A stretch of 64,000 nucleotides of DNA, from assembly GCA_020848615.1 (NCBI GenBank), contig JADLHW010000135.1:1-64000 (forward strand), written 5' to 3'. Positions 1,429 through 10,996 of this stretch are shown in pieces. The notes under the pieces were generated by a model. That model was not told the origin of the DNA. It saw nothing but the letters and a program-made list of their open reading frames with translations, and ran no database searches. Numbering within the stretch: the first letter of the stretch is position 1; each line of letters starts with the position of its first letter. A program made the translations under genes and the position numbers. Source of the stretch: Thermoleophilia bacterium. Lineage in GTDB: Bacteria > Actinomycetota > Thermoleophilia > Miltoncostaeales > Miltoncostaeaceae.

Positions 1429-3477
1429 GTGCTGAGCAAGACCTCACGCATGCACCGCGATCCCGCAGCTGCCCCGGAGCGCTACAGGGCAAGCCACGCA
1501 ACGGCGAACGGAACGGAGGCGATGGGCGAAGCCCTCCAGGACCTCCACACCGACGTCGGTCTCGCCAGCAGCAGCGCAGAGGCCCGAATTTCTGCCGCCG
1601 CGTGGCGCGAGAGCCCCGGCGGCCAGCTGGCCGGCGACCTGGCCAGCGAGACCTTCGTCTCAGAGGTTGCGTTCGCCGCACTTGCGCGGACTCTGCTCGA
1701 GAGCCTTGACGGCGGCGCCAGCGGCACGCGGCTCCTGGCCAGTGTCTTTCCCCACGTTTTCGGATCGCCACTGTTCGGCTGGTACGAGCCGGCGCCGGCG
1801 ATTAGGTCTGAGCTGTTGCAGCTCTCCCAAGCAGCGAAGGGCTTCGGATACGAGCCGGTCGAACTCATCGGCTGGCTCTATCAGTTCACCGTTCCAGATC
1901 CCGTCCGAAGGAGATTCGGCGGCTTCTACACCCCGCAGTCGTTGGTCGAGTTCATGCTCGATCGCGTCGGCTTCGGCGGCGCCCCCTGCACAACCACCCG
2001 CCTGATCGATCCGGCCTGCGGCGCCGGGGCCTTTCTGATCGGAGCCGCACGACGGATGCTCGAGGCCGCCGGCCCGGAGAGCGCTGAGGCATGCCGACTC
2101 CTCCAGCGGTCCCTTCACGGGCTCGACATAAACCCGATGGGCATCCTCCTCGCCGAGGCCACGATCGGTGCTCTCATGCTCCGTAGGCTGGTGGGCGACC
2201 CCCTGCCAGCCGACTTACCCCCGCTTCACCTGTACGTCACCGACAGCCTCGAGCGCGACGCACTGGAGGCCGTCGAGCGTGCCGAGGTGACTGCGATCAA
2301 ACGCGCGGAGGGGACCTGGTCGGCGGGCTTCGACGTCGTGATCGCGAATCCGCCGTACGGCAAGCACCCCTCCCGACTCCTCAGTGAGGTTCAGCGCGAG
2401 CGGTTCTCGGCGACCACCTTCGGACATCCAAACCTCTACGGCCTCTTCCTCCAGGTCGGCCTGGAGCTCCTCGGCGATGGTGGACGTCTCTCGTTCATCA
2501 ACCCAAAATCCTTCGCAAGCGGGCTCTACTTCCGGAAGCTTCGTCGCTTCATCACCGAGCGCCTCACAATCGAGGAGCTCGACTCCTTCACGAGCCGAAG
2601 CGGGCTCTTTGACGGCGTGCTGCAGGAGGTTGTCATCCTCTCGGGAGTCCGCACTGTTGCAGGCGGATCCGACAGCATCACTCTGTCCGAGCACGCCGGT
2701 CCCCCGAGCCGCCGCCCGGCGCGGCGCATCGTGGTCGATCGCGCGTCGGTTCAGCTCGGTGATGCCTTCGACCGAGCCTTCTTCATCAGTGCCGATCCCC
2801 TCGCGCATCGCCTTCTTGACGCCATGTGCGAGCGGGGGACGCCCCTGGCCCAGCTCGGGGTTCGGGCCAGCACCGGGACGATCGTCTGGAATCGTGAGCG
2901 CTCCCTGATCGGAGACGGGCCCGCCGAGTCGGGGCGCCCGCTCGTATGGGGCAATGGAATCCGAGCCTTTCGCTTCCTCGGGCTCGGCAACCGTCGGGGG
3001 GCCGCCACGCACGTTCGGTTGACTGAGAGGACGCGAGGTCTGCTGGTCCGGGGCGACGCTCTTCTCGTCAAGCGGATGACCGCTAAGGAGGAGCGTCGGC
3101 GATTGGTGGCCTGTCGCGTGCCGACCGACCTCGCGCATACCGGCTATTTCGCCGAGAACCACGTGAACGTCCTGCGACCGGACGAGGACGCACAGATCGG
3201 TCTCGACGCCCTCCTCGGTCTCCTAAACTCGAGCTTGTTCGACTACGTCTTCCGAGCCCTGAACGCGAACACCCAGGTATCGGCGACCGAGCTCGAGATG
3301 CTGCCGATCGCACTCGGACCGCCACTCGAGGAAATTGGACGCCTTGCCCGCCAGCTCAGCAGTGAGGCATTCGACGAGGAGCTCTGGCGGGCGCTCGACC
3401 TGGCAGTGGCCGACCTGTACGGCATCACCGAGGCCGACTGCGCTCTCTTGATGCCGGTGTTCCCCGTCGCCGCGTAG
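1429..3477 (+). CDS. N6-adenine DNA methyltransferase (PstI/Eco57I-like)
   Basis: Modification half of a type II restriction-modification system: it transfers a methyl group from SAM to adenine N6 so that the host DNA is not cut. SAM motif I, DPACGAGAF, lies at residues 194-202 and the catalytic motif NPPY at 307-310. The C-terminal third resembles the TaqI/Eco57I-type target-recognition region, with a conserved LLNSSLFDYV segment. Residues are numbered from GTG 1429. ATG 1522 (preceded at very short spacing by GGAGG) is an alternative start that would remove 31 poorly ordered residues. It ends 9 bp from the stop of the nuclease gene, which is convergent, the usual PstI/BsuBI-style pair. The recognition site cannot be read from the sequence. 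Confidence 0.88.
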   Translation: MLSKTSRMHRDPAAAPERYRASHATANGTEAMGEALQDLHTDVGLASSSAEARISAAAWRESPGGQLAGDLASETFVSEVAFAALARTLLESLDGGASGTRLLASVFPHVFGSPLFGWYEPAPAIRSELLQLSQAAKGFGYEPVELIGWLYQFTVPDPVRRRFGGFYTPQSLVEFMLDRVGFGGAPCTTTRLIDPACGAGAFLIGAARRMLEAAGPESAEACRLLQRSLHGLDINPMGILLAEATIGALMLRRLVGDPLPADLPPLHLYVTDSLERDALEAVERAEVTAIKRAEGTWSAGFDVVIANPPYGKHPSRLLSEVQRERFSATTFGHPNLYGLFLQVGLELLGDGGRLSFINPKSFASGLYFRKLRRFITERLTIEELDSFTSRSGLFDGVLQEVVILSGVRTVAGGSDSITLSEHAGPPSRRPARRIVVDRASVQLGDAFDRAFFISADPLAHRLLDAMCERGTPLAQLGVRASTGTIVWNRERSLIGDGPAESGRPLVWGNGIRAFRFLGLGNRRGAATHVRLTERTRGLLVRGDALLVKRMTAKEERRRLVACRVPTDLAHTGYFAENHVNVLRPDEDAQIGLDALLGLLNSSLFDYVFRALNANTQVSATELEMLPIALGPPLEEIGRLARQLSSEAFDEELWRALDLAVADLYGITEADCALLMPVFPVAA

Positions 3478-3486
3478 ACCAGCCGA

Positions 3487-4461
3487 TTAGCCGATCAGCC
3501 CCTCAACGCGGATCAGACGCCCGGCGTCCTCACCGATCCAGACGCTCGTGCCGGGCGCAAGATTCTTCATCCGTGTCTGACGTCCGGCGAAGCGCTTGTA
3601 GCTGGAGTACGCAGTCGTGAGGCCCTCAACCTTCCATCCGCAGCGCCGGGCCCAAGCAGTGATCTCCCGCTGCCGTATGGGGTCGACCCCCCCGTCGGAC
3701 ACAACGGCGTCGACAAGCCATAAGGAGCGGTCGTTCTCTCGGGCGAGGATCGCATCGGGGTAGCGGTCCTCGAGGCCAAGTTCCAGACCCAGCTCAGCCA
3801 GGCGCGGGAACCGGTCAACGGAAACTCGATCACCGTCGGCATCGTCGATGTAGACGAGCTCGAAGTCGGCGAGCTTCTCGGCCTTCAGAGACTCGACGCA
3901 AGTCCGGATCAACGCCGAGTGGGCGCCCTCTCCGACGCGGACTGCGGCAGTCCTCTGGTGTACCCGCCGCCGTCGGTCAGGAGCACCCTGAAGCCACTTC
4001 TCGAGGCGCTCGGACCACTCACCTGAGCGGGCCTCGAGAAGCTCACCCGCATCCTCGCTAAGCACATAGCACGAGTTGGCGGACTTCGGAACGATGTGCG
4101 AGCCGTGGTGGACAAGCGCTCCGTCCGGGCCCTTGCCCCTCGGGTACACGTAAGCGGGAAGGACCAACCCGCACTCCCGTAGTGGCAGGATCGCGTAGTC
4201 GCGCTGCTCGCGGTCAATCCGCGTCACCCCCATGAGGACGGCCGCGTAGTCCAGCAGGTGCTTTGTGCTCGCCCCTGCCGCGATGGGGAGCCCTGCCTCT
4301 CGGAGGGTTGCGTAGCGGTTCGGCGTCGCCGTGTCGGTGAGCGCCAGCAGTACGCCGACTTGCTGGGGCGTCCCCAGGTCCAGTCGGCCGAGCAGGGTTT
4401 CAATGCGCTCCTGCGCGCCCTCACGGCCAGATATCGGCGGCAGTACGACGATGCGGTGAGC
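3487..4461 (-). CDS. Type II restriction endonuclease, BsuBI/PstI family (start unclear)
   Basis: Restriction nuclease partner of the convergent methyltransferase. The C-terminal half carries the family's PD-(D/E)xK-like core: YPDAIL, then LWLVDAVVSDGG, then DPIRQRE. Where I recall Glu in relatives (LIEAV) this protein has Asp. The first ATG, at 4233, would give only 248 residues and cut into the N-terminal domain. Upstream, the same frame stays open for 76 more codons and reads like the family's N-terminal domain (IETLLGRLDLG, QQVGVLLALTDT), giving about 300-324 residues, the normal family length. That extension has no ATG, GTG or TTG. Its first codon directly follows the TAG stop of the Abi_C frame, which is in the same phase. 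The protein may start at a rare codon (CTG 4443, ATT 4404, CTG 4395), or may once have been fused to Abi_C. Confidence 0.8.
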   Translation of the reverse strand, partial: AHRIVVLPPISGREGAQERIETLLGRLDLGTPQQVGVLLALTDTATPNRYATLREAGLPIAAGASTKHLLDYAAVLMGVTRIDREQRDYAILPLRECGLVLPAYVYPRGKGPDGALVHHGSHIVPKSANSCYVLSEDAGELLEARSGEWSERLEKWLQGAPDRRRRVHQRTAAVRVGEGAHSALIRTCVESLKAEKLADFELVYIDDADGDRVSVDRFPRLAELGLELGLEDRYPDAILARENDRSLWLVDAVVSDGGVDPIRQREITAWARRCGWKVEGLTTAYSSYKRFAGRQTRMKNLAPGTSVWIGEDAGRLIRVEGLIG

Positions 4462-5346
4462 CTACGGGTCAGTCGGTCGAGGCGCGCGATCGTCCAACGT
4501 CAAGAGGTACCTCACGAGAGTGATGGCGGCTCCGCTCGCAAGCTCGGCATCTGCCGCGGTCGCTGATGAGGGCTGAGCCCGACCGTGACCGCTGCCGGCC
4601 TCGTTGCGCAGGACGGCCAGGGCATCGGCGACGCTCGCGAGTCGTCGAGCCAGACTCTGGACGCGCTTCGAGGGTTGCTGGTCATTGCCCATCACGTCTT
4701 TGACGAGCGCAGTGAGGCCCTCGCTTGGGGTCGGCGCATCGCCCCCAGCCGTGAGGATCACCCGGCAGGCCGCTTCGAGGAGCTCCTTCGCCGAGCCAAT
4801 CGCTGCAGCGTGGCGTTCATCTCGCAGGGCCTGCTCAAGCGCGCTCGCCGGCTCCTCGAGGGCGGCACGGCCTTCCTTAGACAGCGCAGCCAGCGCCCGC
4901 TCCGGGATAAGGGCGACGAGCGCCCTGTCTCTCGATTCAAGTCTGCGCGTCTCGGCCGCGTCCGCGCTGCCGACATCGGTGACGAAGTACCAGTGGTGGA
5001 TCTGGAGCTCACCCTCGTTCCACACCGACCCGACCGGTAGCGGCCGTGCACCACCGCTCGTGGCATGGAAGCCGAGCATGCCGGCCCCGACAAGCTCTCC
5101 CACCCACTGCGCGATCCGGGCCTCAGAGCCTTGCCCGACCAACCCATCATCCACTGCGGCCTGGAGGATGCCAAGGCCACTCGCGAGGGCCTGCTCGCCG
5201 CGCGGATCGCGACGAAGCCGATCAAGGAGTTCGAGCAAGCTGGCCGCGGTTCCCATCACTCTATTGTCGCGATCGGCCCGGTCGGAGTCTCGACCGACCG
5301 CGGGGTGTCGCGGCGGCGCATCCGAGCCAGGAGGCCCGCCGGCCAT
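4462..5346 (-). CDS. Abi_C-domain protein (abortive-infection C-terminus)
   Basis: Up to 294 residues. The C-terminal third (KELLEAACRVIL, LARRLASVADALAVLRN, GSGHGRAQPS, then a hydrophobic helix) matches the pattern of the Abortive infection C-terminus domain, found in many phage-defence proteins and thought to be RNA- or nuclease-associated. The N-terminal part has a motif-poor region with HHWYFVTDVG and is not recognised. The frame opens at ATG 5346, but the GTG-ATG pair at 5259/5256 (MGTAASLLELLDRL) starts where the ordered region begins and is the better start. It follows the HEPN gene by a few bases and runs in phase into the restriction nuclease through a single TAG. The cognate trigger is unknown. 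Confidence 0.7.
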   Translation of the reverse strand: MAGGPPGSDAPPRHPAVGRDSDRADRDNRVMGTAASLLELLDRLRRDPRGEQALASGLGILQAAVDDGLVGQGSEARIAQWVGELVGAGMLGFHATSGGARPLPVGSVWNEGELQIHHWYFVTDVGSADAAETRRLESRDRALVALIPERALAALSKEGRAALEEPASALEQALRDERHAAAIGSAKELLEAACRVILTAGGDAPTPSEGLTALVKDVMGNDQQPSKRVQSLARRLASVADALAVLRNEAGSGHGRAQPSSATAADAELASGAAITLVRYLLTLDDRAPRPTDP

Positions 5347-5357
5347 CGGTGGTCAAG

Positions 5358-6368
5358 TCAACTTCGCAGGACGTCGGGGTCGCCCGATGGTCGCCTGGCC
5401 GTTTGATGGAGCTCCTGAAGGAGGACAATCACGTCGTACGCCGCCTTCAGAGCCTCGCCTGGCCGAACGCCGGCCTGAGGTAGCTCTTCCTCACCATGCG
5501 CCACGGCATTCCGAAAATCTATGACCGCACGCGTCTTCTCGGCCAGCCGAGGGTCGGTCTCGGCGAGGGACTGGCCGAAGACTTCTCTCATCCCCTTGTC
5601 CAGGAGACTGCGCGTAGCCATCCGACCTCTGCGGGGTAGTCGTGTGCCAATGACTTGCTGGGCCTGCACCTCAAGGGCGACGCCTGCGAGGAGAAGCGCA
5701 TGACGGAGATCCCGCGCTGGCTCGGCGGCACCGAGGTAGTACGCATCGGCGATGAGTCGGAAGGGGAGCGGAGGTCTGACGCCTGTGGCCACCTGATCGA
5801 GGGCGTGATTCACATGCTCTGGCGCCGCCGCCCATGACTCGAGGGGTGTGTGCTGAATGAGTTCCACCATCGGCCCGCATATACGCCTGCCCGTCGTCGC
5901 GTCCTCGAGCCACATCTCCTCGGTGAGCGGCGGCGGCTCTTCAGTTCGACCGATCCAGGTTTGGACGGGTCGGATCTGATCGACGAGCTCGGCCGCGATC
6001 TTCTGGGCAACCCGGCGGGCCCGTCGGTAGAAGCCCTCGCGGCCATCGTCCCGGTACGAGATCGCCGTGCCCTCGTCCACCTCTTTCCCCGTCACGACGA
6101 TCCGCAGCTTGTAAACCGACAGGCAGGTGGCGTCCTCGAGGGTCGCTCCAAGATAGGGCGGACCGAGGGCCGCCTCGGAAGCCGGGAGGTAGCGGATCTC
6201 CTGCGGGTCATCGACTCCGATGCCCTCCGGGTAGCCCTCAGGCCCGGGCGGGAAGACGACGCACACCCGCAGCTCTTCGTAGTCGATCCAACGGATCTGC
6301 CCAAGGACACCGTTCGTAACCCAGAGTCCTTGCATGCGGAAGTGGAAAATTGCTCTGAGGGCGATCAC
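5358..6368 (-). CDS. HEPN-domain protein, putative RNase
   Basis: A 336-residue protein (GTG start; ATG 6335 gives 325). Its C-terminal region is helical and contains FRNAVAHGEEE, an R-x4-H motif (Arg286, His291) typical of HEPN domains, many of which are metal-independent RNases in toxin and defence systems. The preceding helix (LRHALLLAGVALEVQAQQ) also fits a HEPN bundle. The N-terminal 220 residues, including a WIDYEELRVCVVF segment, match nothing I know and may be the sensor. It lies 72 bp after the qatD stop and 11 bp before the widest Abi_C frame. No adjacent MNT-type nucleotidyltransferase antitoxin is seen, which argues against a plain HEPN-MNT module. Confidence 0.65.
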   Translation of the reverse strand: MIALRAIFHFRMQGLWVTNGVLGQIRWIDYEELRVCVVFPPGPEGYPEGIGVDDPQEIRYLPASEAALGPPYLGATLEDATCLSVYKLRIVVTGKEVDEGTAISYRDDGREGFYRRARRVAQKIAAELVDQIRPVQTWIGRTEEPPPLTEEMWLEDATTGRRICGPMVELIQHTPLESWAAAPEHVNHALDQVATGVRPPLPFRLIADAYYLGAAEPARDLRHALLLAGVALEVQAQQVIGTRLPRRGRMATRSLLDKGMREVFGQSLAETDPRLAEKTRAVIDFRNAVAHGEEELPQAGVRPGEALKAAYDVIVLLQELHQTARRPSGDPDVLRS

Positions 6369-6440: not shown

Positions 6441-7232
6441 TCAGCCGCCCGACAACTCACTGCAGCTTTCGTGTGGGCCGCCACAGCGTGGGCTGACGGG
6501 CAGGCTTTGACGGACCCCCAGGGGAAGAAGGTCGGCTACTGACGCGGTTGTCGATAGCTCGCCTAGGTTCTCGAAGAAGCAGTCCCGCACGTCAGTCGGG
6601 CCACGGCCCCAGATGCTGCCGAGTCTTCTCTCGAGAGCGCCGATGTCACCAGGGAACCGCGCGTGACCCGCCGGGAAATCGGTCTCAGGAAGCGCCCGGC
6701 TGACCGGGATCCGCTCGAGCTGCTCATCCGTCATCGCCGAGTTAACGGAGAACCAGCAGCCGAGGTTCTTCGCCTCGGCGACCGTTTCGCTCGCCCCGGT
6801 GAACCAGTGGAGCACGGGAGCGGCAACTGGGTTCTTTCGGAGGAGCGTCACGACCTCTTCGGAACAGCCGGCGCTGTGTAGGGAGCAGATGGCCGGCGCC
6901 GCACCCACCCGGCTGAGGATCTCACTCAGGATGGACTGCTGCACGCCAAGTCTGCCGGCCCTCCGATCGAGCCCAATCTCGCCAACCAGAGCGAAATGAG
7001 GCAGGAGGCGGGAGAAGATCTCCGGGTCAAAGTCAGCGATCGCCTTGCGTGATCCCGGGTGGACACCGAGACCCCAAAGCAGGGTTGGGTCCGGGGGACG
7101 CTGCAGGGCCCATGCCGACTCCGCGAGCGAACGCGAGACGGCGAAGACCAGAGCTCCTCCAAGGCCCCTAACCTGCTCCGCCGACACGTCGGGGGCGAGG
7201 TGGGCGTGGCAGTCGAGCGCCGGCCTAGACAT
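6441..7232 (-). CDS. qatD: QatD, TatD-family metal-dependent nuclease
   Basis: A 263-residue TatD-like hydrolase, the last gene of a QatABCD anti-phage system. Metal-binding HxH is at residues 9-11 (DCHAHLAP). Further conserved stations follow: LGVHPG, LVGEIGLD with the bridging Glu, CSLHSAG, LHWFTG and LPETDFP with the final Asp. ATG 7232 overlaps the qatC stop by 8 bases, so the two are translationally coupled. A longer open frame upstream is a shadow of qatC. TatD enzymes are 3'-5' exonucleases or DNases; in Qat systems the exact substrate is not settled. Confidence 0.88.
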   Translation of the reverse strand: MSRPALDCHAHLAPDVSAEQVRGLGGALVFAVSRSLAESAWALQRPPDPTLLWGLGVHPGSRKAIADFDPEIFSRLLPHFALVGEIGLDRRAGRLGVQQSILSEILSRVGAAPAICSLHSAGCSEEVVTLLRKNPVAAPVLHWFTGASETVAEAKNLGCWFSVNSAMTDEQLERIPVSRALPETDFPAGHARFPGDIGALERRLGSIWGRGPTDVRDCFFENLGELSTTASVADLLPLGVRQSLPVSPRCGGPHESCSELSGG

Positions 7233-8442
7233 CGGGCAGCGGCACCGCCCCCAGCTCGGCGATGCCGCGGTTGCAGAGGTCGACTGCCGCGTCGAAGTCG
7301 AAGCCCGGCGGGAACGACGCAGTCGCCGTGAGGTCGGCCTCGACGATATGGCCCTCGGTGGCCCAGGCGACCGCCGCAATGTCTCCGCGCCGGGCGCGGA
7401 GCAATCGTTCGTGGCGATCGCCAACCGCGTGGTCGCACGAGTAGTCGGTCACGTCGGGATGTCCGTCAATGACAATAGAGGCGCGGCGGACAAGGCACGC
7501 GACACAGAGACCGCAGTTCATGTGCGGGCTGGTCCCGTAGTAGTTGCCGCCGAGCTTGGCGCAGGAGAACGTGGCGGCCATCCCCTCCTCTAGCGCGGTG
7601 CCCCCTCGTCGCGTCCTCGTGAGACGAACGAGCTCACCCTTGGTCAGCCACTCGTGGGGGTTCTCGAGCGCGACGGGAATACCGAGATCGCCCAGGATCT
7701 GCCGCAGGCGCCAGAACGTCCACGGGTGGGTAGACCGTGTGGTCAGCGCGCCACCGCGGTTGGGGCTGAGGGGCGGGTTGAGGCTGGTGAAGCCGTTCTC
7801 CGGGACGATCACCCGCCTCGCCCCGATTCCGGCCGCCACGGCCACCGCAAGGCCGACGAACAAGAATGACCGGGTCCGCGTGCTCGGCTCAGGCCTTCGC
7901 CCGGTCGTCCAGAGCCGGGTGGTCAGCTGTCGCAGATCCGGAGCGAGGTTTGACCTGAGCCACGGAAGCGTCCTTAGCTGGGATGCGGCAACCGGATTGC
8001 TGTCCGAGTGACTGAGAAACAGCCTCTCGCTCGCCTCGCGGCCGCCGAGCTCGAGAACCGCGCCGCAGAAGGAGTCCAGGCCGCCACTAAGCAACACGAC
8101 CGCATCCGCCGTCTCCAGCTCGACCGCCGGATCGGACGGCACGACGGCGTCCGGCGCCACGTACAGGTCCCAGGTGTCGCCGGTGAGGTAGCTCAGCAGC
8201 TCCTCGAGCTGGTCGAGGCGTTCGGTCCCGTCCCAGGACGCCGGCTCCCGAAGCTGGAGCGAAACGGACAGGCTGCGCGAGAAGGTCGTCGGCCGCGGAG
8301 AGGCGCAGTCGATCGCATAGACAGAGGTGGCGATCCGGGCAAGATCCTCCGCTGGCGCCGGGATCTTCCCGACGCGAGAGAGAAAACGCTCAAGTGCAGA
8401 GAGCGCCTCCGCGTTCGAGCTCGCGACCGAGGGCGTGCTCAT
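7225..8442 (-). CDS. qatC: QatC, QueC-like ATP-pyrophosphatase
   Basis: A 405-residue protein related to QueC, the enzyme that makes 7-cyano-7-deazaguanine. The PP-loop SGGLDS is at residues 119-124, and a cysteine cluster in the last third (a Cys about 20 residues upstream, then CGLCVAC) should bind zinc. It is much longer than housekeeping QueC (about 220-240 residues), and no queF, queD or queE lies nearby, so it serves the defence system rather than queuosine synthesis. ATG 8442 overlaps the qatB stop as ATGA. The frame also allows a start 15 bases earlier. In the Qat system QatC may modify or activate a partner protein, but this is not established. Confidence 0.88.
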   Translation of the reverse strand: MSTPSVASSNAEALSALERFLSRVGKIPAPAEDLARIATSVYAIDCASPRPTTFSRSLSVSLQLREPASWDGTERLDQLEELLSYLTGDTWDLYVAPDAVVPSDPAVELETADAVVLLSGGLDSFCGAVLELGGREASERLFLSHSDSNPVAASQLRTLPWLRSNLAPDLRQLTTRLWTTGRRPEPSTRTRSFLFVGLAVAVAAGIGARRVIVPENGFTSLNPPLSPNRGGALTTRSTHPWTFWRLRQILGDLGIPVALENPHEWLTKGELVRLTRTRRGGTALEEGMAATFSCAKLGGNYYGTSPHMNCGLCVACLVRRASIVIDGHPDVTDYSCDHAVGDRHERLLRARRGDIAAVAWATEGHIVEADLTATASFPPGFDFDAAVDLCNRGIAELGAVPLPDV

Positions 8443-9272
8443 GAGCCGGTCTTGCACATCATGTCGACGGCGACAGCGGTCAGTGTTTGCGTGGTCGCCG
8501 CCAGAGTGGACAGGTCAATGCTCTCGCCGCGCACCCCGAGGTCAACGCCCGGTAGACGTGCGTCCAGCCAGTCCTTCAGGGCCTTCTCCGCGCGCTCGGC
8601 GTCACGACGCGAGAGTCGCTTCTCCTGAAGGCCCTCTGTGAGTGGCACGACGGCCATCTGGAAGATGAGAGCACCGGCAAACTCGCGCACGACCGCCGCC
8701 GGGTCTGGCTCAACCTCGGCCGTCAGGATCCGCTCAAGAAACCCGTCAGCCGCGCGCCGGACGGCTGCATCATCCGGGTGGTTGGGCCGTCCGAGAAACT
8801 CATCAAGCAGCCGCTGCTTCTGTTCGACCGGGCGGAGACCGCCGAAATCAGCCAGATCGAGCCCAAGATCGCGCAGCGCCGCTGCATCACCACTACGGAT
8901 GGCGTAGGCACCCGCGATTGCCCGTCCGGCCGATGCGGCTCTCCTGCCGACTTCGCGCCGTCCGCGCCGGCCTCCGCCTCCGCCCCCGTCACCCGAACTG
9001 CCTCCGCCTCGCCCGGCTCCGCGGAGCGACGGATCTCCCCGTCGCAGTGCGCGCCCGACTCCACGGATGAACTGGTCGGGGCTCGGCCTGGCGGGCGGGT
9101 TCCGCCCGCTCCCCTGGTCGTTGCCGGCGCCGTCTCCGTTCCCGTCCGCTGACGATCCGTCTCCGTCGGCAGACGACGCCTCGCCATCCCCGCCGAGGAA
9201 GGCATTCAGTGCGTCCGCCGCCGCGTTCCAGGGGCGCCCGCTCGCTCCGCCATAGCTGCCCGATGTGCCCAT
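8439..9272 (-). CDS. qatB: QatB, Qat system linker protein
   Basis: A 277-residue protein in the qatB position, between the KAP ATPase and the QueC-like gene. The first 120 residues are low complexity: Gly, Ser, Asp and Arg runs (for example DGDGSSADGNGDG). The C-terminal 160 residues are ordered and helical (LRDLGLDLADFGGLRP, VVREFAGALIFQM), with a tail near MCKTGS. No catalytic motif is visible. The start is ATG 9272, overlapping the qatA stop by one base (TGATG). The assignment comes mainly from gene order; QatB proteins diverge a lot. A disordered Gly-rich head followed by a helical tail fits what I remember of the family. Confidence 0.75.
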   Translation of the reverse strand: MGTSGSYGGASGRPWNAAADALNAFLGGDGEASSADGDGSSADGNGDGAGNDQGSGRNPPARPSPDQFIRGVGRALRRGDPSLRGAGRGGGSSGDGGGGGGRRGRREVGRRAASAGRAIAGAYAIRSGDAAALRDLGLDLADFGGLRPVEQKQRLLDEFLGRPNHPDDAAVRRAADGFLERILTAEVEPDPAAVVREFAGALIFQMAVVPLTEGLQEKRLSRRDAERAEKALKDWLDARLPGVDLGVRGESIDLSTLAATTQTLTAVAVDMMCKTGS

Positions 9273-10996
9273 CAAGAGGGCCCGAGTGCGTCGGTCAGAG
9301 CAACCTTCGCCGGCCCGGAGAGGTCCGGATCCTCATGCAGGGACCGAGCATGGGCGACGAGCGCCTCGACACCGGACTGGGCGAGCACCACCATCGCGGC
9401 CGGGGTGAGATCGCGCGTGGGCACGCGCCTGACGGCCTCCTCGGCCTCCGGCACCAGCATTGGATCGGCCCCGGCGAGAAACACGAGGGCACGGATGAAG
9501 GGGGCGGGTTCGTCACTGCGGCGCAGACGCTCGGAGATCTCGCTGGTAAGCCGCTGGCGATCTGCGCCACCGATCTGCCCGACCCGCCCCTGGGCCGCCT
9601 CCCGGACCGAGGTGACAGAAGAGCACAGGTCATTGACGGCCTCGAGGAGCTCGGCAGGCAGAGAGACGACCGAGGTCGCCCCGGCGAGGGACGCCGCAAG
9701 CGTCAGATAGGACGCGAGCTCAACCCCCACCAGACTGGGATCCCGACGGGCCCAGTCGTGTGTCCCGGCGAGATCAATGTGAGGCGGTGGCTTGTCGGCG
9801 TCGTCGGCGCCCCAGGCTTCCCACGCCTCGATGAGGCTGGCCTGCTCGGCCGGGACACGGCTCACGAGATGCGCGAATGCGGGCCGGTGCCGGTCCTCGA
9901 GCAGCAGGAGCTTCACCAAGACGAGTGCGTCGATGCCGACCGAGCGGGCGGTCGCAATGCTCTGGCGGACACCGAAGAGGTTCAGAAACCGCTTGATGTC
10001 TCGAGGGTTCCCGGCGCGCTCGGGACCCAGGCCGTGCACAACCTGGGCGGCAAGGCGTGCGGCCTCCGTCGGAAGTCCGAGATCCACCGCTCCGGCGAGG
10101 GGCGTCTTGCCCTCCGCTCGCCTGGCTCGGCAGTGCACCCGGAGGGCCTCCATCTCAGGCTCTCCGAGCTCGTGGCCCGCGATCAGCAGGGCGACGTATG
10201 CCTCGGCGTCATGGGCCGGGATGCGGGGCAGCAGGATCGGGATCTGGATGATCTTGTCCAGGTAGTGCCTCGCCACGTTCTCGAGGTCCCGTCCACCCGA
10301 GAGGTGGAACGAGATCGCGGCCCGTACCGCGTCCTGGTCGGCGGCGATCACGAACGCAATCTTCTCGACGGACAAGAAAAGCTTGATCGCCTCGAGACTC
10401 TGGACGACTGCGGGAGGAAGACACCGGTCGAGGTCATCGACGAGGACCACGACCCTGTCGATCCCGGCCAGCTGGGCGAGAAAACCAGCGAACTCACCCC
10501 GGAAGCCGGCCAGCGTGAGCGGCTGTTCCTCGGTCGGCGTGAGCGCATCGGCAAGGGCGCCAAGGTCGGGGGTCATGGTGACCGCACTGCGCAACAGAAC
10601 CTGGCCTGCGCGGGCCCAGCTCACCCTCCTCAGCAGGCCAGCGACGCCCTTGAGGGCCTCGTTGAAAGCTCCCTGATCCTCGCTGAGCTTGGTCCGCAGG
10701 CTTGCCAGGACCGCATCGATCAGCGCGCCTTTGACGTCAGCGCTGTCCTCGAACTCCCAGGGATTCACCCTGACCACGATGTACCGGTCGTGACGGTTGA
10801 GGCGGTCGTCAAGAAGCTCGAGGACGGTCGACTTCCCGCCTCCCCACGCCGCGTGGACGCCGATCGCGATCGGGTCGAGACCCTTCGTCTGGAGGATCTC
10901 GACCACTGGAGCGACTACCGCGTCGAAGCCCAGGAGGTCGATCGATGCGGGGTTGTCGTCGAAGAGCCTCGCGTGCTTGGACAAGTTTCCGGTCAC
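9272..10996 (-). CDS. qatA: QatA, KAP-family P-loop ATPase
   Basis: A 574-residue KAP NTPase, first gene of the QatABCD system. Walker A GGGKST lies at residues 52-57, and Walker B VVVLVDDLDRC at about 182-192 with the KAP-type double Asp. Downstream motifs (FVIAADQDAV, NPRDIKRFLNLF) are also typical of KAP proteins. No clear membrane segments are seen, so it is probably cytoplasmic. The start is GTG 10996. No Shine-Dalgarno precedes it, but CATACT lies some 12 bases upstream, as for a leaderless transcript. All four qat genes overlap, indicating one transcript from here leftward. Confidence 0.9.
   Translation of the reverse strand: MTGNLSKHARLFDDNPASIDLLGFDAVVAPVVEILQTKGLDPIAIGVHAAWGGGKSTVLELLDDRLNRHDRYIVVRVNPWEFEDSADVKGALIDAVLASLRTKLSEDQGAFNEALKGVAGLLRRVSWARAGQVLLRSAVTMTPDLGALADALTPTEEQPLTLAGFRGEFAGFLAQLAGIDRVVVLVDDLDRCLPPAVVQSLEAIKLFLSVEKIAFVIAADQDAVRAAISFHLSGGRDLENVARHYLDKIIQIPILLPRIPAHDAEAYVALLIAGHELGEPEMEALRVHCRARRAEGKTPLAGAVDLGLPTEAARLAAQVVHGLGPERAGNPRDIKRFLNLFGVRQSIATARSVGIDALVLVKLLLLEDRHRPAFAHLVSRVPAEQASLIEAWEAWGADDADKPPPHIDLAGTHDWARRDPSLVGVELASYLTLAASLAGATSVVSLPAELLEAVNDLCSSVTSVREAAQGRVGQIGGADRQRLTSEISERLRRSDEPAPFIRALVFLAGADPMLVPEAEEAVRRVPTRDLTPAAMVVLAQSGVEALVAHARSLHEDPDLSGPAKVALTDALGPS

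Follow-up and report, generated by a model that had tools for sequence, protein, structure and literature searches.

A BsuBI/PstI-type restriction nuclease frame without a usual start codon, in phase behind an Abi_C gene: probably a lost or mis-sequenced start

A minus-strand frame encoding a BsuBI/PstI-type, SdaI-like restriction nuclease (3487–4461) has no usual start codon at its 5′ end, where it directly follows the stop codon of an Abi_C gene. The frame probably belongs to an ordinary restriction-modification pair whose nuclease has lost its start, either in the cell, by a small indel or a truncation, or through an assembly error. The window, i.e., the whole 64,000-nucleotide stretch of DNA that was analyzed, corresponds to bases 1–64,000 of contig 135 in a GC-rich assembly of 183 contigs and 3.64 Mb.

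Reading of the frames confirmed the arrangement described in the original prediction, namely a PstI/BsuBI-like frame that is in phase with Abi_C across a single TAG and is devoid of ATG, GTG, and TTG upstream of 4233. From 4461 to 3487, it comprises 324 open, nuclease-coding codons; the codon directly 5′ of it is the TAG at 4464–4462, and the first ATG, GTG, or TTG in the nuclease frame, ATG 4233, is preceded by 76 codons (4461–4234) that hold none of the three. Stretches of 76 codons free of these start types occur at 6.3% of the positions within 156 genes of the genome, and the phase shared by the nuclease and Abi_C is a 1-in-3 coincidence. The presence of a conserved protein within such a stretch, judged from homology to eight relatives, is not a matter of chance. 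In the codon-usage gene call, two genes of the window were flagged because their coding signal and start disagree. The nuclease is the only one in which the signal extends upstream of every ATG, GTG, or TTG start, and the other represents the reverse case, a low-complexity stretch in the probable QatB.

The identity of the encoded protein was assigned from its C-terminal domain and its fold. Residues 173–321 match Pfam family PF06616 with 66.5 bits (E = 2.4e-18; curated cut-off 27). The nuclease sequence matches SdaI (PDB 2ixs) with an E-value of 2.7e-4, and the predicted fold has the same enzyme as its sole significant match (E = 1.3e-11), with 340 alignment columns covering the whole length. 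Since no start codon is present between 4461 and 4234 although homology extends from 4416, the protein is a member of the BsuBI/PstI group by homology and not as an intact working gene.

Eight relatives were used for comparison, including those from Cerasicoccus (L005) and Rhodobacter (L006) and six viral-contig records of IMG/VR (L017–L022), with which the nuclease shares 31–38% sequence identity over nearly its whole length. A profile of these relatives aligns to residues 16–320, so that homology begins at coordinate 4416; most of them align from residue 16 or 17 of the open frame, and one extends to residue 7. When taken alone, residues 1–76 score 16.6 bits against this profile. In the AlphaFold2 model, residues 1–12 have pLDDT values below 50, order sets in at residues 13–14, and a confident helix (pLDDT of about 84) runs from residue 14. 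The best start of the coding signal in the gene call is coordinate 4422. Homology, predicted fold, and codon signal thus agree that the structured, conserved nuclease begins at 4422–4416, and the true start would be expected between approximately 4461 and 4416, or nearby but out of phase. A need of the nuclease for sequence upstream of 4233, as claimed originally, is borne out by the homology, the profile, the AlphaFold2 model, and the SdaI fold match alike.

The simplest alternative would be a shortened protein of 248 residues beginning at ATG 4233 (or GTG 4227). This start is the first canonical codon and requires no special event, and 176 of the 201 bits of the profile score fall downstream of it. 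However, the part that would be removed (4234–4416 on the minus strand) contains, within residues 16–76, confidently predicted helices and conserved motifs (GAST-type and AL-D), the SdaI match covers the whole length, and the codon signal reaches 4422. Homologues starting at the equivalent of Met 4233, named at the outset as the observation that would speak against an upstream extension, were not found, as all eight relatives possess the upstream part. A start at 4233, which would delete these conserved motifs and helices, is therefore very unlikely, and the nuclease should not be annotated from that position, whether its start is near-cognate, lost, or mis-sequenced. Separately, an open reading frame in the +1 frame from GTG 4424 (4224–4424, minus strand) closes at TGA 4226–4224, which overlaps the nuclease-frame GTG 4227 in the form GTGA and so mimics translational coupling to a shortened nuclease. 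Because it is the other frame that encodes the conserved protein, this overlap is probably a coincidence.

Upstream of the TAG lies the Abi_C gene, which encodes a HEPN-type, AbiJ-like abortive-infection protein (4462–5259, minus strand; PF14355, E = 3.2e-13; PADLOC AbiJ, E = 1.5e-10). Its frame is listed as 4462–5346 and is open to 5352, but a start at GTG 5259, the best coding start, or at ATG 5256 is more likely than one at 5346; the choice does not affect the claim on the nuclease. The original prediction had raised the possibility of stop-codon readthrough, or of a fused defence gene recently split by a nonsense mutation. A shared phase is compatible with both, and a linker might be read into the residues that flank the TAG (RAPRPTDP-stop-AHRIVVLPP). 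Yet most Abi_C relatives in the phylum have their C-terminus no more than about 16 residues from the position equivalent to residue 282 of the 294-residue Abi_C protein. In the closest of them (G218), the protein finishes there with ALADFVLGE, and a more distant one (L031) continues for 173 residues past that position. Recoding of TAG was rejected, as it is a common stop that ends 40 of 156 sampled genes of the genome. RNA structure of the kind expected for readthrough is absent around the TAG (z = +2.25; 200 of 200 shuffles fold better). On the side of the nuclease, no Abi_C–nuclease fusion came to light: in all eight nuclease relatives, the nuclease is a separate gene, convergent (tail to tail) with an N6 methylase and with no Abi_C match nearby, so neither fusion nor conserved adjacency was seen among them. 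Across 396 genomes of the phylum, three full-domain BsuBI/PstI frames comprise 312, 316, and 320 codons, too short for a fusion, and a fourth (G042) comprises 496. Neither readthrough nor a nonsense-split fusion is supported by these data, and the view that the two genes were once one, or are still joined through the TAG, has little to recommend it. The TAG at 4462–4464, from the relatives' ends and the usage of TAG in this genome, is the natural end of Abi_C; the 5′ side of the nuclease is the edge of the restriction module, and it adjoins Abi_C, to judge from the relatives compared, only in the present genome.

The true start is expected in the junction at 4417–4461 (minus strand), a stretch of 15 codons with no clear homology, low model confidence, and weak codon signal; the codon-usage score of 4461–4425, −3.8 bits, fits coding and non-coding sequence alike. 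A rare start codon, also proposed originally, is possible in principle. In phase within the junction are ATC 4452, CTG 4443, and ATA 4434, whereas ATT 4404 already lies inside the conserved part. Initiation at one of the former three, probably by reinitiation after the TAG, would keep the nuclease low relative to the methylase, which would make sense for restriction-modification. The stop codon is 9–27 bases upstream of them, near enough for coupling, and such starts are known in bacteria: in Staphylococcus aureus, AUA serves infC and ccpN, and AUU serves cvfC1, at roughly 10% of the level of AUG (PMC13009471). These S. aureus starts are, however, conserved and provided with extended Shine-Dalgarno sequences (PMC13009471), whereas the codons of the junction have at most a 3-base Shine-Dalgarno match and no convincing ribosome site, and each of the eight relatives offers an ATG or GTG where its N-terminus is expected. 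CUG, moreover, accounts for approximately 0.024% of bacterial starts and is about 0.86% as efficient as AUG (PMC11497404). The Shine-Dalgarno weakness itself is weak evidence, since such motifs are hardly more frequent at gene starts in the window than at random positions; a ranking of the candidate starts by this feature was uninformative in the window and was dropped. Overall, a near-cognate start is the main rival reading; it appears unlikely, although more probable than the other two alternatives, and ranks below a lost or mis-sequenced start, and production of the nuclease specifically by termination-reinitiation at ATC, CTG, or ATA, 9–27 bases past the Abi_C TAG, is more doubtful still. 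If it did occur, restriction would be tied to Abi_C expression with the nuclease held very low. Were the sequence right and the nuclease made, the locus would be one of few in which a toxic defence enzyme is restrained through a near-cognate start that is coupled to a second defence gene.

A small indel or a truncation at the module boundary, neither of which was among the explanations first put forward, fits better. The start codon nearest to the beginning of homology is GTG 4424 (4422–4424, minus strand), which lies one frame off, in the +1 frame, at the place where nuclease homology, order, and codon signal all begin, and which has no Shine-Dalgarno match. Loss of one base just after this GTG, putting it out of phase, would explain the missing start most economically, by a single event. 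Alternatively, the gene may have been truncated at the module boundary, because an N-terminal helix (M-A-x-H-D-x-V-A-x-L-R type), present in seven of the eight nearest relatives, is not seen at this locus in any frame. The +1 frame was considered as a hidden N-terminus (RWTIARLDRLTRR...) on account of its resemblance to this helix, and was rejected, since random out-of-frame peptides score equally well (P = 0.47). Similarly, a VLPP likeness to the start of plasmid-borne BsuBI/PstI enzymes (L050, L052) was set aside as a coincidence, since that group is not close overall.

The rarity of near-cognate starts and the commonness of broken-looking genes together favor a lesion or an assembly error. 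According to work cited in PMC3488263, such genes are common, and most of those resequenced in one genome proved intact; for Brucella, the figure cited there is 109 of 138 apparently broken genes. Against this, no other gene of the window looks clearly broken in the codon-usage gene call, so that poor quality is not a general trait of the assembly. Apart from its 5′ end, the nuclease frame is open and shows good codon usage, and decay, if real, would therefore be recent. A sibling copy of the locus was sought in 60 related genomes, with short chance matches only. Neither did searches of plasmids and phages with the whole nuclease, or of viral contigs with Abi_C, the methylase, and the nuclease N-terminus, return relatives, and a plasmid search with residues 1–143 of the open frame gave nothing significant.

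The active-site motif deviates from that of the relatives. The PD of the PD ... E motif is kept (P235 and D236), but the glutamate is replaced by D251 (GAC, 3709–3711, minus strand); glutamate occupies this position in the eight relatives, the plasmid enzymes L050–L052, the PstI-like L053–L055, and SdaI, i.e., in all relatives inspected. The substitution hints at decay but proves nothing. It may weaken the enzyme, or it may represent lineage variation, as the window nuclease differs at 50 of the 118 positions that are invariant in the other eight.

The partner of the nuclease is an N6-adenine DNA methylase with Pfam Eco57I and N6_Mtase domains (1429–3477, plus strand), which is convergent with it, as in the relatives, across a 9-base gap and is presumably its cognate enzyme. 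Its sequence identity with the methylases that accompany the nucleases of the relatives is 28–31%. An N-terminal extension of approximately 140 residues distinguishes it from its counterparts, and the gene call favors ATG 1522 over GTG 1429 as its coding start. The system itself appears to be an ordinary BsuBI/PstI-class type II pair, in which the nuclease would cut a specific site and the methylase would protect it, lying beside a run of Qat, HEPN, and Abi_C defence genes whose end it abuts, with the TAG serving as the stop of Abi_C itself.

That run includes a Qat anti-phage operon on the minus strand (6441–10996), whose genes are joined by short overlaps: QatD (6441–7232), QatC (7225–8457), a probable QatB without a family match (8439–9272), and QatA (9272–10996). 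QatA, QatC, and QatD score below the NCBIfam equivalog cut-offs, pointing to a divergent member of the Qat group. Between Qat and Abi_C, a 336-residue protein (5358–6368, minus strand) has no Pfam match but carries a HEPN-like RNAVAH motif near its end and a weak PADLOC RTasHEPN match (E = 0.003); with Abi_C, it would make two HEPN-type proteins in a row.

The consequences of a lost start depend on its cause; what kind of lesion is involved, and what it does, are both inferred. A lesion that is present in the cell would silence the nuclease wholly or almost wholly and leave the methylase as an orphan, and the locus would offer a snapshot of a restriction system that is losing its nuclease. If an assembly error is responsible, the system would function normally and the locus would be ordinary.

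The locus was compared with several known systems. With SdaI, PstI, and BsuBI (PF06616), the nuclease shares a PD-(D/E)xK-type C-terminal domain, a full-length SdaI fold, and an N6-adenine methylase as a neighbor; it differs from them in the missing usual start, in D251 in place of the motif glutamate, and in its position behind Abi_C. The loci of the eight relatives (L005, L006, and L017–L022) resemble the window in the convergence of nuclease and methylase, but they have their own ATG or GTG starts, mostly the N-terminal helix, and no Abi_C neighbor, and their methylases are shorter than that of the window. Genes with near-cognate starts (infC, pcnB, and ccpN) would be of the same kind if the nuclease frame is translated although ATG, GTG, and TTG are missing from the region where it should begin; those of S. 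aureus are distinguished by conservation and an extended Shine-Dalgarno sequence, neither of which is seen for the window nuclease. Finally, orphan methylases with a decayed nuclease offer the likeness of an intact methylase frame beside a nuclease with a damaged 5′ end, a likeness that is limited in that the 5′ damage predicted in the window may be an assembly error.
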